Source: Bacteroidaceae bacterium
GTDB taxonomy: Bacteria > Bacteroidota > Bacteroidia > Bacteroidales > Bacteroidaceae
Length of the DNA stretch: 41,399 nucleotides
Direction: 5' to 3'
Assembly: GCA_024398405.1 (NCBI GenBank)
Contig: JAKSJE010000010.1
Location: forward strand, 1 to 41,399
The notes beneath the pieces are model-generated. The model did no database searches. It was not told the origin of the DNA and worked only from the letters and a program-made list of their open reading frames with translations. This document shows positions 18,242-41,399 of the stretch, piece after piece. The position numbers were made by a program, and so were the translations under genes. The stretch's first letter is position 1, and every line of letters begins with the position of its first letter.

Positions 18242-19726
18242 ATGAAAGTCATACAGATCAATCCGTCAGACAACGTGGCAGTAGCCATCCATCCCACACA
18301 CAAAGGCGAGACCGTCAGCATAGGCGGCAAGTCGCTGACCGTCGCTGACGACATCCCCGCCGGACACAAACTCCTCCTGGAAGACCTCCGCCAGGGTGCG
18401 GACGTCATCAAGTACGGCTACCCCATCGGGCACCTGACATCCGACCGCAAGGCGGGAGCGCTCGTCGATGACACGAATATCAAGACCAACCTCTCAGGAC
18501 TCCTCGACTACGAGTACAATCCAGTAGGCGAGACCGCGGTTGACACCTTCGGCATCGAGCTCCCACCGACGTTCCGGGGCTTCAGAAGGCGTAACGGCGA
18601 GGTCGGTATCAGAAACGACATCTGGATTGTGCCGACAGTCGGATGCGTCAACGGAGTCTGCAACGAGATAGCCGCGCGGTTCAATGCGACCCATGACACC
18701 AAGGCGATACCGTTCGGACACAACTACGGCTGCAGCCAGCTCAGCGAGGACCACGAGAACACACGGCTCATCCTGCGCGACCTCGTACTGCACCCGAACG
18801 CGGGAGCCGTGCTCATCGTCGGACTCGGATGCGAGAACAACCAGCCCGACAAGTTCTTGGGACTTCTCGGTGACTACGACACCGACCGAATCCGCCTCAT
18901 GGTCTGCCAGCAGGTCGAGGGCGACGAAGTCGGGACCGGCCTGGCAATCATGGAGGAACTCCACGCTCTCGTATCCTCTGACCAACGCCAGGACATACCC
19001 ACGTCCGAACTCCGCATAGGACTGAAGTGCGGAGGGTCCGACGGATTCTCAGGCATCACGGCCAACCCACTGCTCGGAGTGTTCTCCGACATGATAGTCA
19101 AAGCAGGCGGCACGAGCGTGCTCACAGAAGTACCGGAGATGTTCGGAGCAGAGACCATCCTCATGAACCGCTGCGAGAACGAGGAACTCTTCAGGCAGAC
19201 AGTCAGCCTCATCAACGACTTCAAAGCCTATTTCCTCTCCCACGGAGAGCCCGTCGGCGAGAACCCGTCACCAGGCAACAAGGCAGGCGGCATATCAACC
19301 CTCGAAGAGAAAGCCTTGGGATGCACCCAGAAATGCGGCAAGAGTCCCGTCAGGGGAGTGCTCCGCTACGCCGAACGACTTGAGAGCAAAGGGCTCAACC
19401 TCCTCTCAGCCCCTGGCAACGACCTCGTGGCAAGCACGGCACTCGCCGCCTCAGGATGCCATATCGTACTCTTCACCACAGGTCGCGGAACACCATTCGG
19501 CACCTTCGTACCGACAATGAAGATATCGACCAACACCACGCTCTACCGCGACAAACCCAACTGGATAGACTTCAACGCCGGCACACTACTCGAAGGCACA
19601 TCCATGGCAGAACTCGCCCGAGCGTTCGCCCGACAAGTACTTTCCATAGCCAACGGCACACCCACTAACAACGAACTCCACGGCTACCACGAGATAGCCA
19701 TCTTCAAGACAGGAGTCACATTGTAG
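18242..19726 (+). CDS. uxaA: Altronate dehydratase, UxaA family
   Basis: Dehydrates altronate to 2-keto-3-deoxygluconate in galacturonate breakdown. The 494-residue product contains both parts of the family: an N-terminal SAF domain (1-95) and the C-terminal catalytic domain with VPTVGCVNGVCNEIAARF, FGHNYGCSQL, GLKCGGSDGFSGITANP and FTTGRGTPFGTFVPTMKI. Cys and Gly residues there are candidates for binding the metal centre. It is orphaned: no uxaB, uxaC, kdgK or kdgA is in the window, so partners must lie elsewhere. Related sugar-acid substrates (galactarate-type) cannot be excluded. It is 5 bases downstream of the AraC regulator gene. Confidence 0.9.
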   Translation: MKVIQINPSDNVAVAIHPTHKGETVSIGGKSLTVADDIPAGHKLLLEDLRQGADVIKYGYPIGHLTSDRKAGALVDDTNIKTNLSGLLDYEYNPVGETAVDTFGIELPPTFRGFRRRNGEVGIRNDIWIVPTVGCVNGVCNEIAARFNATHDTKAIPFGHNYGCSQLSEDHENTRLILRDLVLHPNAGAVLIVGLGCENNQPDKFLGLLGDYDTDRIRLMVCQQVEGDEVGTGLAIMEELHALVSSDQRQDIPTSELRIGLKCGGSDGFSGITANPLLGVFSDMIVKAGGTSVLTEVPEMFGAETILMNRCENEELFRQTVSLINDFKAYFLSHGEPVGENPSPGNKAGGISTLEEKALGCTQKCGKSPVRGVLRYAERLESKGLNLLSAPGNDLVASTALAASGCHIVLFTTGRGTPFGTFVPTMKISTNTTLYRDKPNWIDFNAGTLLEGTSMAELARAFARQVLSIANGTPTNNELHGYHEIAIFKTGVTL

Positions 19727-19762
19727 CCACAGGAATCAACACACACCGCGATGGGCGGTCAC

Positions 19763-19779
19763 GGGGCGCCATACGCCCC
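19763..19779 (+). other. Hairpin after uxaA
   Basis: GGGGCG, loop CCATA, CGCCCC, starting 37 bases after the uxaA stop. The stem is strong but no T-run follows, so a role as terminator or 3'-end stabiliser is uncertain. Confidence 0.45.
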
Positions 19780-19871
19780 ACCCTATCTCTGGCCACAAAC
19801 CCAACTCCCGAGCGAGAGCCTGTCTGACCGCGTCAGCACATCTGGCCGACGTGAGCCAATCCACGATTTCA

Positions 19872-19903
19872 AAAACACAAGAAATGAATTCATAGCACCC
19901 AAC
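19872..19903 (-). repeat. Intergenic repeat, diverged copy C
   Basis: Aligns without gaps to copy A (22-53) at 27 of 32 bases, sharing CAAGAAATGAATT and ATAG-ACCC. It lies in the 638-base gap between uxaA and the GH10-like gene, upstream of the palindrome array. Confidence 0.6.
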
Positions 19904-19966
19904 ATCCATGATTACCCTTGCAGCATCATTGTCCGACAAACCATCTCCGACGGTCGCCAGGACTTG

Positions 19967-20166
19967 ACACACCGCACGCCATTTGGCAATACTACGCACG
20001 AGACATCGCAAGGGTGCGCATGACATTATCCACGATTACGGACAAAACTATATTTCTGTTACTAACAAGTGGTATATATCTGTTACTAACAGGAGGTATG
20101 CGCTGTTAGTAACAGGAGGTATGCGCTGTTAGTAACAGGAGGTATATACTTGTTACTAACAAGTAG
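19967..20166. repeat. Dispersed element copy 1: 90-base head plus palindrome array
   Basis: Bases 19967-20056 match 41183-41272 with no indels and about 12 substitutions. They lead into five copies of the 11-base palindrome TGTTASTAACA starting at 20057, 20081, 20104, 20127 and 20151, spaced 24, 23, 23 and 24 bases. The centre base is C in copies 1, 2 and 5 and G in copies 3 and 4. Spacers read aGTGGTATATATC, gGAGGTATGCGC (twice) and gGAGGTATATACT. It lies between uxaA and the convergent GH10-like gene. Function unknown. Confidence 0.85.
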
Positions 20167-20232
20167 GTAATGTTAAGCGCAGTCTCTGGTAATGTTATCC
20201 GCAGTCTCTCGTATTGTTATCCGCAGTCCGGG
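20167..20232. repeat. Second tandem repeat, three 22-base units
   Basis: Units start at 20167, 20189 and 20211 with consensus GTAATGTTATCCGCAGTCTC, and abut the palindrome array. The third unit is degenerate at its end. Unlike the 24-base units, they lack the TGTTASTAACA palindrome, although GTAATGTTA recalls half of it. Confidence 0.75.
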
Positions 20233-20248
20233 GGTTCATCAAATCAAA

Positions 20249-20284
20249 AACCGTCCACAGACGTTCGCAGTCCAGTGGACGGTT
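20249..20284 (-). terminator. Hairpin downstream of the GH10-like gene
   Basis: AACCGTCCAC and GTGGACGGTT form a 10-bp stem with a 16-base loop. On the minus strand it is followed by TTTGATTTG, giving five consecutive T with the stem end. It lies about 80 bases after the stop at 20365 and is a plausible terminator for the long minus-strand series. Confidence 0.65.
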
Positions 20285-20364
20285 GACATGGCTGAGCGAT
20301 ATTACCGGGTCTTCTTGGATTTGGAGTGTCCACGGAATAATGCACATGCGCCGATTTCTGTGCC

Positions 20365-21879
20365 CTACAATTGTATTTTCCTGACTTTGGATTCGTTTTG
20401 GAGACGGTCCAAGGCTGTGACTACGAAAGTGCAGCCTGACTGATTGCCTACGAGCTGATAGCGAGTGTCACGTGTGATGGCTACGAGATGTCTGGCTGCC
20501 TCAGGTGAGTCGATGTCTATCTTCTCGCCTTTGACGAATCTGTATATGGCATAGGACTTGGCGGCATTGAGCTCTTTCTTACCGCGAGGCGACTTCCAGG
20601 AAAGGAATATGTCTCCAGTGCTTGGTTCAATGATGACAGAGAGCCCGCGTACTTTCTTCGGCGCTTTCTTGTCTATCCACGGCATCAGAGGCTGGAGCGC
20701 GGGTGTCTTATGGTAGTGGTTCTGGAGGAGAGTGCCGTATGAACCGATGTCGCTCACGACGGCAGCCGCATACCACTGGCAACTGCCCTTGATGTTAGGG
20801 AGCGAGCGCTGGATACGGTACTTCGCGGCCATCTGATGAGTTGACGGGTTGTCGGGGTCGGCGCCCTGGACTGTGCGCTCTACATCCTGTCCGATGAAGA
20901 CGGGACGTTCGCCACAATAGTCGTTCCACCATTCCGCGAGTATTTTGTAGTCTGCCGCCTTGTTACCTATGTTCCAGTAGATCTGTGGTATGTTGTAGTC
21001 AACCCATCCTTTCCTGACCCAATAGACGACATCGGCATATAGCTGGTCGTAGTTCTGAAGTCCGTTGGTGGCACTACCCCGTTCGCTGTTGACGCCGGCA
21101 GGGTTGTTACGGTAGATTCCGAACGGGGATACTCCGAACTTGACCCACGGCTTGACGGTGCGGATGAGTTTGTGGATGTCACGGATAAGCATGTTGACAT
21201 TGTCGCGTCGCCAGTCGTTGATGTTATCGAAACCGCGACGATGGGTCAGGAACTCATTCCCGTCCGGAATCTCGATACCGGCCTCGGGATAAGGATAGAA
21301 GTAGTCGTCCATGTGGAGTCCGTCAACGTCATAATTGACCAGTATGTCCTCAATGACGGCGCAGATGTACTGACGGTTGATTTCCTTGGCCGGGTCGAAG
21401 ATGATGAGGTCGCCATAACGGAAGGTCCGCTCGGGATGGAGCACGACCTGATGATTGCGGGCCAATGCGATCGTGCCTTTGGTCTTAGCTCGGTAGGGGT
21501 TGATCCAGGCATGGCATTCCATATTGCGGCTGTGGCATTGCTCTATCATCCACTCCAACGGGTCCCAGCCATCGGACGGAGCAATCCCCTGCTTGCCAGT
21601 AAGGTAACGGCTCCAGGGTTCATAGCTGGACTTGTAGAGGGCATCGCCTTCGGCGCGGACCTGAAACATGATGGCGTTGATGCCGTCTTTTTGCAGGACA
21701 TCAAGCTGTGAGGATAGCATCTGACGGATTTCAGCCATTGACTTGCCGAGATACTGTCCATTGACGCACTGAATCCATGCGCCACGGAACTCACGTTTCT
21801 GCGCGTCGCAAACAGCTGACGCGAAAGCGACCATTGCCAACATAAGGGCAAGGCGTCGGAGATTGTTTTTTCTTTTCAT
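20365..21879 (-). CDS. Glycosyl hydrolase-like GH10/DUF187 family protein
   Basis: A secreted protein of 504 residues. The signal peptide ends near SAVCDAQ. The catalytic-like barrel (about 28-390) begins with FRGAWIQCVNGQYLGKS and has IMFQVRAEGDALYKSSYEPWSRYLTG, ECHAWINPYRA and DGLHMDDYFYP; these match the family 10-like glycosyl hydrolases formerly DUF187, some members of which cleave peptidoglycan or other glycans. The C-terminal 100 residues form a fibronectin-like beta domain (LSWKSPRGKKELNAAKSYAIYRF). Its ATG overlaps the PLD-like stop (ATGA). The substrate cannot be read from the sequence. Confidence 0.87.
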   Translation of the reverse strand: MKRKNNLRRLALMLAMVAFASAVCDAQKREFRGAWIQCVNGQYLGKSMAEIRQMLSSQLDVLQKDGINAIMFQVRAEGDALYKSSYEPWSRYLTGKQGIAPSDGWDPLEWMIEQCHSRNMECHAWINPYRAKTKGTIALARNHQVVLHPERTFRYGDLIIFDPAKEINRQYICAVIEDILVNYDVDGLHMDDYFYPYPEAGIEIPDGNEFLTHRRGFDNINDWRRDNVNMLIRDIHKLIRTVKPWVKFGVSPFGIYRNNPAGVNSERGSATNGLQNYDQLYADVVYWVRKGWVDYNIPQIYWNIGNKAADYKILAEWWNDYCGERPVFIGQDVERTVQGADPDNPSTHQMAAKYRIQRSLPNIKGSCQWYAAAVVSDIGSYGTLLQNHYHKTPALQPLMPWIDKKAPKKVRGLSVIIEPSTGDIFLSWKSPRGKKELNAAKSYAIYRFVKGEKIDIDSPEAARHLVAITRDTRYQLVGNQSGCTFVVTALDRLQNESKVRKIQL

Positions 21880-37800: not shown

Positions 37801-38746
37801 GACCGTCAGATTTCTGAAAGACTGGACGTTGCCGCTGTCCATGGTCACGGGCGTAGTATGCTACTTCGTCTATGTCAGCATTCCAGCGCTCGACCACACC
37901 CACCATGTCGTCAGCGACATCGTCGATATACTTCAGCCTTCACTGATATTCTGCATGCTCTTCCTCTCGTTCTGCAAGGTCAGTCCGCACGACCTGAAGC
38001 CACGACTCTTCCAGTTGGAACTGGTGGCGATACAGGTGGGAGGTTTTCTTCTCTTCGCGCTGCCTGTCATACTCTTTCCCGACATGCCGGGACGCATTCT
38101 GATGGAGAGCGCCATGATATGTCTTATCTGTCCCACGGGCACTGCCGCCGTCGTGCTCGTCAGCAAACTGGGCGGCAACGTGAGTTACACCATAAGCTAC
38201 ACCTGCCTCATCAACATCATTGTGGCCATCGTGTTCCCTGCCATCATATCCGTCATGCACACCAACAGCAACGGCGCCGACCTCGCGACCTCGTTCTTCC
38301 TGATCATGGGGAAGGTCAGTCCATTGTTGGTGTTCCCACTGCTGACGGCATTGATAGTCAAGCACCTGTTCCCAGACCTACACCTGTGGCTGCGCAGCAA
38401 GGCGGGAGCCGCCTTCTCACTATGGGCAGTCAGCCTGAGCCTTTGCATCGCCATAACCACGAAAGCCATCATGCACAGCGATGAGGGCGGGATGACGTTC
38501 ATGGGCATCGGACTCGTCAGCGCGGCATGCTGTATTGTGCAGTTCTGGGCAGGCCATCGCATCGGCTCACGTCACGACGGAAGGATATCATGCGGTCAGT
38601 GCCTCGGACAGAAGAACACCGCTTTCGCTATATGGTTGGCATATACGTTCATGAATCCGGCCACGGCTATAGCGGGAGGGTTCTACGTAATCTGGCACAA
38701 CACATTCAACACCATCCAGCTCTATCAATCCCAGCACAAGTCATGA
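37793..38746 (+). CDS. BASS-like (bile acid:Na+ symporter superfamily) transporter
   Basis: A membrane protein of 317 residues with about nine or ten hydrophobic helices. The pattern MSTVSKASALG-type loops is absent, but GTAAVVLVSKLGGNVSYTIS resembles the crossover GxxAS region of BASS carriers, and GQKNTAFAIWLAYTFMNPATAIAGGFY matches their second crossover helix. These carriers import organic anions with Na+; the substrate here is unknown. The ATG at 37793 overlaps the uvrB stop by 8 bases, and its own stop overlaps the mutS2 start (ATGA), so the three are translated in series. Assignment is by pattern only. Confidence 0.65.
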   Translation: MSRTVRFLKDWTLPLSMVTGVVCYFVYVSIPALDHTHHVVSDIVDILQPSLIFCMLFLSFCKVSPHDLKPRLFQLELVAIQVGGFLLFALPVILFPDMPGRILMESAMICLICPTGTAAVVLVSKLGGNVSYTISYTCLINIIVAIVFPAIISVMHTNSNGADLATSFFLIMGKVSPLLVFPLLTALIVKHLFPDLHLWLRSKAGAAFSLWAVSLSLCIAITTKAIMHSDEGGMTFMGIGLVSAACCIVQFWAGHRIGSRHDGRISCGQCLGQKNTAFAIWLAYTFMNPATAIAGGFYVIWHNTFNTIQLYQSQHKS

Positions 38747-41172
38747 TTTACCCGGAAAACTACGAACAGAAGATAGGCTTCAGTGACATCAGACAGATCG
38801 TCAAGGGCTACTGTCTCTCCCCTCTCGGCGAGAGTCTCGCTGACAAGATGACATTCTGCCGCGACTACGACATCGTGAAGGTACAGTTACGCCAGGTGGC
38901 GGAATTCGTACTGATACTTCAGGAAGAGGAATTTCCTTCCGATGACTTCTTCGACGTCCGTGACGTACTCCGCCATATCCGCATCGAGAAGACATGGATC
39001 GACACCGACCGCTTGTTCGAACTGCAGCGCTCACTGGGAGCCATCATCCGTATCGTGTCTTTCTTCAGCAAGACGGAACTGACCCCCACCCTGTCCGGAC
39101 TAGCGAAGGACGTACCTGTTTTCCCCCACATAGTGAAGCGGATCGGTTCGGTACTTGACAAATACGGAAAGATCAAGGACAACGCTTCGCCTGAGTTACA
39201 TGAGATCAGGAGGAACATCACCAACACCACCAACAGCATATCCCACCTGCTCCGCACCATCCTCTCACAAGCCAAAAGCGAGGGTCTGGTGGAGAAGGAC
39301 GCCTCACCCGCCATGCGCGACGGACGTCTGGTCATCCCGGTAGCACCTGCCATGAAACGACGTCTGAACGGAATCGTCCATGACGAGTCCGACACCGGCA
39401 AGACCGTCTATATAGAGCCGGCGGAAGTGGTCGAGGCTAACAACCGCATCCGGTCCCTCGAGGCCGAGGAACGACGGGAAATCCTACGCATCCTCACGGA
39501 AATGGCTGACGTCATACGCCCAGAACTAAAGGAAATCATGAGTTCCTACGACTTCCTGGCCGAAATCGACTTCATCCGCGCCAAGGCGAGATTCGCGATC
39601 GACTATGGATGCACAGAGCCAAGGTTCGAGAAACAACAGGTAGTGGACTGGTCGATGGCTATACATCCGCTACTGAGGCGGTCGCTCGCGAAGTCCGGAC
39701 GGAAAGCCGTCCCTCTCGACATACTGCTGAACTCAAGGCAGCGCATACTGATTATCTCAGGCCCTAACGCAGGGGGCAAGTCGGTATGCCTCAAGACCGT
39801 CGGACTGATTCAGTACATGCTTCAGTGCGGACTGCTTGTACCGATGGCGGAAAGCAGCGTATGCGGAATATTCGACAATATCTTCATCGACATCGGTGAC
39901 GAGCAGAGTCTCGAGAACGACCTGTCCACCTATTCATCGCATCTGCTCAACATGAAGAACATGATGAAGGGCGCGAACGGCAGGACACTGATACTGATTG
40001 ACGAGTTCGGAGGCGGCACGGAACCGCAGATCGGAGGGGCCATAGCCGAGGCGGTGCTCAGGCGATTCAATGAGAAAAGAGCCTTCGGGGTCATCACCAC
40101 ACACTATCAGAACCTCAAACACTACGCAAAGGACACACACGGCATCATCAACGGAGCGATGCTCTATGACAGACAGATGATGCAACCGCTGTTCCAGTTG
40201 AGAATCGGACAGCCCGGTAGCTCGTTCGCGGTGGAGATAGCAAGGAAAATCGGCATACCTGACGATGTCATCGAGGACGCTTCGAGACTGGTCGGACAGG
40301 ACTATATCAACGCCGACAAGTACCTGCAGGACATAGTGCGTGACAAACGCTACTGGGAGAACAAACGTCAGCTCATCCATCAGCAGGAAAAGAAACTCGA
40401 ATCCACGATAGCAGAATACGAGGAGAAGATGCAAGGCATCAAGGCCCAGAAGCGCGACATACTCGACAAGGCCAAGCAGGACGCCGAGAACCTGCTACAG
40501 CAGTCGAACGCACTGATCGAGAAGACTGTGAAGGACATCAAGGAAGCGCAGGCTGAAAAGGAAGAGACAAAGAAGATAAGGGAACGGCTTTCCCGATTCA
40601 AGGACAAGGTGCTCTCAGAAGACAAGGAAGACCAAAGCGCCCCGAGGAAGAGCAGGAAGAGCAAAAACCCGCGGCCGACCGTCACACGACCCCAGACCGT
40701 GGCCGCAGCGCCGCTGGCAGTCGGCACTTACGTACGCCTGAGAGGCCAGAGCACCGTGGGCAGGATAACCAAGATATCCGAGAAGGAAGCCCAGGTGGAG
40801 TTCGGGAGCATCATCACCAACACAAGACTCAGCAGGCTCGAAGCCGCCGAAGCACCGAAGAAAGAGAACTCCGTATCAATCAACATGCTGAGTCCCACCA
40901 CACAACTCCGTTCGGAGAAAATCGCCAACTTCAAAGGCTCCATCGATGTCCGCGGGATGCGCGGTGACGACTGCATCAGCGAGATTACGGAATACATCGA
41001 CAACGCGGTGATTGCCGGCGTCAGGACCGTAAGCATCCTTCACGGAACTGGCAACGGCATTCTCCGCAACCTCGTGAGAATGTACCTCGACACCGTCCCA
41101 CAGGTCATCAGCTATCGCGACGAACTTCCACAGTTCGGAGGAACCGGCATCACCGTCGTGGAACTCGAATAG
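38743..41172 (+). CDS. mutS2: Endonuclease MutS2
   Basis: A MutS-family ATPase of 809 residues that in other bacteria restrains recombination or rescues collided ribosomes; it is not the mismatch-repair MutS. The MutS clamp and core come first, then Walker A GPNAGGKS (340-347), Walker B in LILIDEFGGGTEPQIGG, and a His in VITTHYQNLKHYA. A long coiled coil (about 510-630) and a KOW-like segment (AVGTYVRLRGQSTVGRI) follow, and a C-terminal Smr nuclease domain (VRGMRGDDCISEITEYIDNAVIAG, then LHGTGNGILRNLV). The frame extends upstream to 38527, but the ATG at 38743 overlaps the preceding stop as ATGA and starts the family sequence. Confidence 0.95.
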   Translation: MIYPENYEQKIGFSDIRQIVKGYCLSPLGESLADKMTFCRDYDIVKVQLRQVAEFVLILQEEEFPSDDFFDVRDVLRHIRIEKTWIDTDRLFELQRSLGAIIRIVSFFSKTELTPTLSGLAKDVPVFPHIVKRIGSVLDKYGKIKDNASPELHEIRRNITNTTNSISHLLRTILSQAKSEGLVEKDASPAMRDGRLVIPVAPAMKRRLNGIVHDESDTGKTVYIEPAEVVEANNRIRSLEAEERREILRILTEMADVIRPELKEIMSSYDFLAEIDFIRAKARFAIDYGCTEPRFEKQQVVDWSMAIHPLLRRSLAKSGRKAVPLDILLNSRQRILIISGPNAGGKSVCLKTVGLIQYMLQCGLLVPMAESSVCGIFDNIFIDIGDEQSLENDLSTYSSHLLNMKNMMKGANGRTLILIDEFGGGTEPQIGGAIAEAVLRRFNEKRAFGVITTHYQNLKHYAKDTHGIINGAMLYDRQMMQPLFQLRIGQPGSSFAVEIARKIGIPDDVIEDASRLVGQDYINADKYLQDIVRDKRYWENKRQLIHQQEKKLESTIAEYEEKMQGIKAQKRDILDKAKQDAENLLQQSNALIEKTVKDIKEAQAEKEETKKIRERLSRFKDKVLSEDKEDQSAPRKSRKSKNPRPTVTRPQTVAAAPLAVGTYVRLRGQSTVGRITKISEKEAQVEFGSIITNTRLSRLEAAEAPKKENSVSINMLSPTTQLRSEKIANFKGSIDVRGMRGDDCISEITEYIDNAVIAGVRTVSILHGTGNGILRNLVRMYLDTVPQVISYRDELPQFGGTGITVVELE

Positions 41173-41182
41173 CGAGCCCGAC

Positions 41183-41399
41183 ACACACCGCATGACATTT
41201 GGCAACACAACGCACCAGACATCGCAATGGTGCGCACGACATTATCAACGATTACGGAAAAAACCACAATTCTGTTACTAACAGGTGGTATATATCTGTT
41301 ACTAACAGGTGGTATATATCTGTTACTAACAGGTGGTATATACTTGTTAGTAACAGGTGGTATATAGTTGTTACTAACAGGTGGTATATAGTTGTTACT
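41183..41399. repeat. Dispersed element copy 2: head plus 24-base palindrome array (cut by window end)
   Basis: The head 41183-41272 is collinear with 19967-20056. Six copies of TGTTASTAACA start at 41273, 41297, 41321, 41345, 41369 and 41393, exactly 24 bases apart; the last is cut by the window end. The centre is G in the copy at 41345 and C elsewhere. The spacer is GGTGGTATATATC, drifting to GGTGGTATATAGT at the far end. The array follows mutS2 by about 100 bases. No gene is seen in this 227-base stretch. Confidence 0.87.

Follow-up and report, generated by a model that had tools for sequence, protein, structure and literature searches.

The genome from which this DNA comes carries a real, many-copy and phased element, which in its broad kind is a dispersed intergenic repeat with an internal minisatellite. 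Its centre is a tandem array of the 11-base palindrome TGTTASTAACA, flanked in most copies by 22-bp units held in one phase. On the sequence evidence gathered below, we lean towards reading the element as a dispersed, non-coding platform of candidate double-stranded DNA sites for a dimeric protein. A second species of the genus has the same site plan with a wholly different recognition sequence, so that a many-copy element keeps its phase and plan while the letters presumably recognized differ completely between two congeners. To our knowledge, most dispersed repeats described in bacteria are either hairpins that a transposase mobilizes or isolated sites for one protein.

Two copies of the element in the window

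The window, by which we mean the whole stretch of 41,399 nucleotides analysed, is contig 2 of a 1.71-Mb, 75-contig assembly (labelled G000) that is 59.7% complete. As the original prediction had described, two places in it share one plan. The palindrome array of the first copy occupies positions 20057–20161, with five exact TGTTASTAACA starting at 20057, 20081, 20104, 20127 and 20151 (spacings 24, 23, 23 and 24 bp), and that of the second occupies 41273–41399, with five exact palindromes 24 bp apart (41273–41379) and a sixth interrupted by the contig end; neither array is assigned a strand. The unit lengths (23–24 against 24 bp) and unit counts first reported were thus confirmed. With up to one mismatch, TGTTASTAACA matched 11 times in the window against 0.32 expected, and none of 100 shuffles reached 11. 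TRF recovered both palindrome arrays and, in addition, a 22-bp array at 20166–20228 that had previously been overlooked.

The sequence on either side of the first array is conserved as well. Alignment of 15 left flanks of the copies that we call type A (see below) placed the head of the first copy at 19910–20056 on the plus strand, since it is kept from about 19910 in most type A copies; the 90 bases first delimited as the head, 19967–20056, are the part common to the copy at 41183 (87% identity) and so describe the window pair correctly but not the longer head of the type. Used as a query, the head matched 20 places in the G000 genome. It contains three outer units on the plus strand, CGCACGCCATTTGGC (19973–19987), CGCACGAGACATCGC (19995–20009) and CGCATGACATTATC (20017–20030), which start 84, 62 and 40 bp ahead of the first palindrome. 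Behind the array lie three 22-bp tail units of the GGTAATGTTAAGCGCAGTCTCT type (20166–20228), recovered by TRF and assigned to the minus strand from orientation counts and offsets; their reverse complement is similar to the outer motif, differing at 2–3 of 15 positions in the better copies. The remainder of the conserved tail (20229–20352, plus strand), defined by alignment of right flanks, ends in GCACATGCGCC, past which the likeness among type A copies ends; the element thus extends beyond the array to about 20352. In the second copy the head (41183–41272, plus strand) begins 11 bp beyond the end of the mutS2 gene, whose product matches Pfam MutS_V and Smr, and its outer units lie at about 41189, 41211 and 41233 on the plus strand, judged by their offsets from the array. 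Plus-strand genes precede both copies (18242–19726 and 38527–41172), and a GHL10-family gene adjoins the first, which sits within 19727–20364. A tRNA was the sole match of an Rfam scan of the window at gathering scores. At the place equal to window positions 19910–19925, type A heads have a GATTACCTTTGCAGCA-like stretch pointing into the array, where the window copy has CCCTTG; this stretch resembles the Bacteroidetes -7 promoter box, TAnnTTTG.

Copies across the genome

A search for the palindrome beyond the window, as the original prediction had proposed, found 199 TGTTASTAACA sites in the 1.71 Mb of G000, with 148 pairs of neighbours spaced by 23 or 24 bp, and the reversed control pattern gave none. 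From stretches around the places matched by array and head queries, seeded on exact palindromes, we read 42 arrays comprising 193 units; 185 of the units are exact (the other 14 of the 199 genomic sites fall outside these arrays' count), six have one mismatch and two have two. Positions 2–5 and 7–9 of the palindrome are invariant in all 193 units, and the centre base is C in 86, G in 107 and never A or T, as had been noticed in the window. The palindrome varies much less than the spacers: it departs from the consensus at 10 of 1930 positions, and the 120 spacers of 13 nt do so at 14.7% of theirs, while the 12-nt spacers (n = 31) are also kept, at 4.8%. Seeding on exact palindromes misses decayed arrays and overstates this conservation; the spacers, which come from the very same arrays, provide an internal control. 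Because the 151 spacers fall into just 41 sequence types, the most frequent of which occurs 30 times, the arrays lack the unique spacers of a CRISPR array and are not of that class.

Arrays hold 2 to 9 units, several being interrupted by contig ends. Neighbouring units differ in their centre base in 28 of 151 pairs, where shuffling within arrays expects 39.5, so there is no pull to C–G pairing between neighbours; likeness of neighbouring centres is also what tandem duplication would give. Similarity between copies fades within about 100 to 350 bp on each side, and the flanks beyond are unrelated. For 26 of the 42 arrays a contig end is no more than about 100 bases away, so that the element accompanies many assembly breaks, whether it is a protein platform or a mobile element. 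A separate repeat with AATAGAACACCCCTT-like stretches stands beside several elements, in the left flanks of L080, L119 and L079 and in the right flank of L082.

The TGTTASTAACA element itself was confined to this genome in our searches. A 204-bp element query had no match in 40 other genomes of the genus, family and order, the paired-palindrome pattern was absent from 16 congeners, the exact pair pattern was absent from the viral contigs searched, and BLAST against plasmids and phages gave no match. The further copies expected in the genome and its relatives are thus abundant in G000 and found in none of 16 congeners, which counts in part against the original prediction, though one congener, G012, has the same plan with another palindrome. 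In a scan of 84,980 species a single isolated 34-bp pair turned up, in Cytophagaceae Prado072, and it was taken as chance and not as the same element elsewhere.

Head and tail types and the 22-bp grid

Sorting by eye gave two types of copy, leaving five arrays unsorted (L084, L088, L115, L116 and L118). In type A (24 arrays, including both window copies), three outer units precede the array, and behind it come 22-bp tail units and then a longer tail with GCACATGCGCC at its end. The head of type B (13 arrays) is made of 22-bp units of the GCGAGCGCATGACATTATCAAC type, with CATCCCACT at the head end in most, and its tail is unlike that of type A. In the counts that follow, arrays interrupted by contig ends were omitted wherever the side needed was missing, and L184, L217, L218 and L219, which have no readable bases, were excluded.

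The outer motif GCGCATGACATTATC, with up to three mismatches, occurs 63 times near arrays, 42 times on the left on the same strand and 21 times on the right on the opposite strand, and never in the two remaining orientations; the whole 262 kb examined holds eight further occurrences, of which three are exact and belong to loci where part of a head stands at the edge of a contig. Of the right-hand occurrences, 13 lie in the tails of eight type A arrays (two or three mismatches each), seven in L116 and L118, where a head follows an inverted array, and one in a type B tail. Spacing is equally regular. Type A head motifs start 40, 62 and 84 bp before the first palindrome in 13, 11 and 13 of 15 flanks, and type B head motifs start 18, 40, 62, 84 and 106 bp before it in 9, 10, 9, 8 and 6 of 10, so both head types share one 22-bp phase. 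The type A tail motif (CGCAGTC type) stands at 16, 38, 60, 82 and 104 bp in 16, 15, 11, 6 and 5 of 16 flanks; among 11 type B tails, no motif offset recurs in three or more.

Type A is therefore roughly symmetric: its outer units keep to a 22-bp grid and point inward, with the palindromes at 23–24 bp in the centre, and type B has the head grid and the palindromes without an inverted tail. Since type B tails lack the phased outer motif, the symmetric plan is not general; it holds for type A and for G012. A tandem outer-motif pattern proved too strict, with one match in G000 and none in 16 other genomes. In L116 (1–150) and L118 (1–180) the array is inverted relative to its head, unlike in the sorted copies, which points to an inversion or to an exchange at the palindromes of two copies or sites.

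The same plan in a congener

In the congener G012, beside an orthologue of the GHL10-family gene, we found 22-bp units, four GGTGTACACC palindromes (one with a changed base) at 22 bp, and inverted 22-bp units. Adjacent GGTGTACACC pairs at N12 number 83 in G012 and none in 16 other genomes of the genus, G000 included. Among the copies with both flanks present and at least three near-exact sites, the core measures exactly 76 bp in 36 of 36; a relaxed pattern finds four sites in 34 and three in the other two. The palindromes of the core carry the major base at 98.7% and the spacers at 76.5%. On the left, the outer CGAGCG precedes the first site by 22 bp in 34 of the 36 copies, by 44 bp in 33 and by 66 bp in 31, and right outer units end 22/23, 44/45 and 66/67 bp past the last site in 34, 34 and 29, giving the same inward arrangement as in type A. 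The core is bracketed by A5 before the first palindrome and T5 after the last, at 92 to 100% per position over the 36 copies (for example L124 and L201). By eye, the G012 outer unit CGAGCGCTCATAAATTGTC resembles the type B unit CGAGCGCATGACATTATC of G000, and the inner palindromes of the two genomes differ.

The element stands by the GHL10 gene in both genomes (G000 window 19727–20364; G012 L124 2950–3500), and this shared position is probably a coincidence. A translated flank match to G000 array flanks was obtained for 5 of 37 G012 arrays, one over only 29 residues, which is about chance as estimated from the fraction of the genome fetched, and positional orthology was dropped for this reason. 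Among the matches listed (C9, C17, C24, C39, C51, C56 and C79), many gaps between G012 positions measure 13 to 27 kb, with exceptions of 7.4, 32 and 43 kb, and we make no claim of a regular spacing along the chromosome.

These features bear on another account, an ordinary minisatellite produced by replication slippage and without function. The variable unit number in G000, where several arrays are interrupted by contig ends, and the shared centre base of neighbouring units would both suit it, but slippage would not be expected to hold the palindrome while the spacers drift, to keep outer units in a fixed phase, to fix the core length in G012 or to build the same plan from different letters in another species. 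We consider this account very improbable.

Gene context and RNA folding

Gene context was counted with crude ORF calling in six genomes (G000, G010, G007, G005, G012 and G003). The statement that copies follow plus-strand genes is correct for the two in the window and is no rule beyond it: the head-side ORF points at the element in 12 of 26 readable G000 copies and away in 14, the caller being rough enough to have mistaken a 97-aa ORF within the head for the gene next to the first window copy. G000 copies with both neighbours called (n = 12) are 8 tandem, 3 divergent and 1 convergent, and readable G012 copies (n = 23) are 10 convergent, 10 tandem and 3 divergent, against a background (n = 51) of 12, 27 and 12. 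Gene context thus points to no single role. By the same crude calling the element is intergenic, only short ORFs overlapping the arrays.

As RNA, the arrays fold far better than shuffles (z from -5.0 to -9.5), which raised the question of a transcription terminator or another RNA-level hairpin element at gene ends. The A5 and T5 that bracket the G012 cores, as in a bidirectional terminator, and the convergent neighbours of 10 of 23 G012 copies (background 12 of 51) speak for it. However, repeated palindromes force strong folding, so the energies do not discriminate, and pairing in the G012 core beyond the sites never exceeds that of row-shuffled alignments (flank arms 0.599 versus 0.599, A5/T5 0.944 versus 0.946, spacer arms 0.676 versus 0.711, loop ends 0.600 versus 0.612, outer units 0.515 versus 0.552); there is no pairing covariation in G012. 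No terminator-like site lies at the window array (19700–20500), and in none of the G000 tails examined does the array run straight into a T tract, although G012 does have T5; the neighbouring centres do not favour C–G and only 1 of the 12 G000 copies is convergent, with 3 divergent. A hairpin or terminator was accordingly rejected as improbable. The missing covariation, the centres and the lack of a terminator at the first window copy together argue for recognition of duplex DNA over that of a folded strand.

Comparison with mobile elements and other known systems

Another account must be weighed, namely that the element is a selfish, non-autonomous, MITE-like element of the BrickBuilt kind, with units and palindromes that are transposase or recombinase sites and conservation that stems from mobility and not from a host role. 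We regard it as possible, if on the unlikely side. Among published designs known to us, BrickBuilt of Porphyromonas gingivalis comes nearest and offers a precedent: in the description examined (PMC4596501), it too is intergenic, dispersed and limited to one species and near kin, and it likewise consists of a leader, tandem units of about 23 nt and a tail, with partial copies that lack ends and a variable number of units. The initial view that no described element is of this kind must be qualified to that extent. The unrelated flanks of the copies, the negative searches for the element in congeners and the chance-level flank matches between G012 and G000 arrays would likewise fit mobility.

Some BrickBuilt copies have 12-bp IS5-type terminal repeats, and putative target duplications were reported in three of four testable copies, again in the part of that description examined (PMC4596501); neither feature was found for our element. 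The four P. gingivalis-type terminal repeats are absent within 450 bp of the 42 arrays at up to one mismatch, and fixed ends with a target-site duplication were not found in the 36 G012 copies (k = 4, 6 and 9), where the best counts lay within the range of mispaired controls and the test used fixed offsets while the right-hand offsets vary by 1 bp; few of the G000 copies are complete at both ends. An end-to-end inverted repeat was not noticed by eye in the flank alignments. PF01797 (Y1 transposase) had no match in G000, at 59.7% completeness; in G012 it gave three weak matches, two of which reached or exceeded the cut-off, and they are not tied to the element. Four inner sites at exact spacing are, moreover, not obviously needed for ends alone. 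The ends of Mu and Tn7 carry several 22-bp transposase sites in inverted arrangement. Since terminal repeats were not found, nor target duplications in G012, we do not file the element as a MITE, though it may move like one. If it is mobile, it would show which part of such an element selection or transposition holds. The strictly kept palindrome in each unit and the outer 22-bp units in fixed phase belong to our element and do not figure in the BrickBuilt description examined.

Other published repeats, as far as the portions of their descriptions examined extend, share single features with the element. MITEPgRS/464 of P. gingivalis also has a tandem core with repetitive flanks but is built of 41-nt units and has terminal repeats (PMC4596501). 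REP, BIME and REPIN sequences are dispersed extragenic palindromes with proposed protein-binding or chromosome roles (PMC3733652, PMC2817692, PMC3116915); they are repeats of 20–40 bp, in contrast to 11-bp palindromes with one unpaired centre base at 23–24 bp, and the Y1 (RAYT) transposase associated with REP and BIME is the PF01797 family whose matches in the two genomes are given above. The TAACTGA repeats of Beggiatoaceae, Cyanobacteria and some Bacteroidetes likewise form many short intergenic sets per genome, but they are direct repeats of a heptamer, which in the genome described mostly lie shortly before start codons, and not palindromes (PMC4679880). Within the parts of the open-licence literature that our search reached, we found no account from these bacteria of palindromes set in phased arrays.

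A candidate platform for a dimeric protein

The original prediction had proposed that the palindromes are repeated sites for a dimeric protein, and this is the best-supported reading, given a palindrome that is held while the spacers drift, a centre restricted to C or G, and a hairpin alternative that fails the covariation test in G012. We therefore outline how such a platform might work, and we infer the binding of a protein, its dimeric and cooperative nature and its chromosomal role. The inner palindromes (TGTTASTAACA in G000, GGTGTACACC in G012) would be sites for a homodimeric DNA-binding protein, and the flanking 22-bp units would be a second kind of site. With one site per 22 to 24 bp, or roughly two helical turns, bound dimers would lie on nearly the same face of the helix and might form one cooperative nucleoprotein block in the intergenic region; in G000, where the inner sites are spaced at 23 or 24 bp instead of 22, the same-face argument is weaker. 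Along the chromosome, such a block could serve to anchor, insulate or silence. The copies must have spread duplicatively, by transposition or by recombination between copies. Recent spread and homogenization between copies could also keep the sites alike, though the spacers of the same arrays vary.

Dimeric proteins that act on scattered chromosomal palindromes are familiar from the parS, matS, Noc and SlmA sites, which are known as single sites and not as phased arrays; our element resembles them in its dispersed palindromes and differs in its phased arrays. If a protein does bind, the element would represent a new nucleoid or regulatory system in the genus, and a clear example of joint change in a protein and its sites throughout the genome. 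A bolder and, in our judgement, doubtful extension is that species of the genus, perhaps of the family, build platforms on one plan, with dyad-symmetric sites at two-turn intervals between outer units that face inward, but in species-specific letters, with the protein and its genome-wide sites replaced together in speciation and the platforms serving chromosome organization, as a bacterial counterpart of fast-evolving centromere-like or satellite sites.

Period-22 repeats in other relatives

TRF was run on 1.17 Mb from 11 congeners (144 kb of it outside long ORFs), in stretches chosen at contig starts and around particular genes and not at random. It returned 136 noncoding tandem repeats (period at least 9, at least 2.3 copies), with a peak of 46 at period 22, 12 at 21, 17 at 11, 4 at 23, 1 at 20 and none at 24. 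G012 supplies 27 of the 46, and 19 of 90 remain at period 22 when it is excluded. Period-22 arrays occur in 7 of the 11 congeners and in none of the sampled stretches of G014, G011, G009 and G001. Period 22 was absent among the repeats inside long ORFs of six congeners. Six genomes from other genera of the family gave period 22 in 5 of 11 such repeats (4 of the 6 genomes), and the 40 kb sampled in two further families of this order, too little to judge by, gave no tandem repeats.

With G012 excluded, dyad symmetry (p up to 0.05) marks 10 of 36 units of period 21–24, the remaining 26 being without it, as well as 2 of 41 units of other noncoding periods and 3 of 25 coding ones. Many period-22 arrays have a sequence of their own, several within one genome, and hence they are not one family; a strict palindrome scan overlooked arrays that TRF recovered. 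Locus-specific, often palindromic intergenic arrays of 22-bp period were seen in G005 (L175 122–179 and 11760–11892, L174 13557–13749), and similar arrays in G003 (L206 4566–4656, L207 6707–6798, L202 474–602, L220 11844–11919) and G024 (L286 17673–17737). Several of those in G003 lie between divergent genes, as operators would. In the stretches L168–L173 of G007 there are ten noncoding tandem repeats whose period, 11, equals one turn of the helix.
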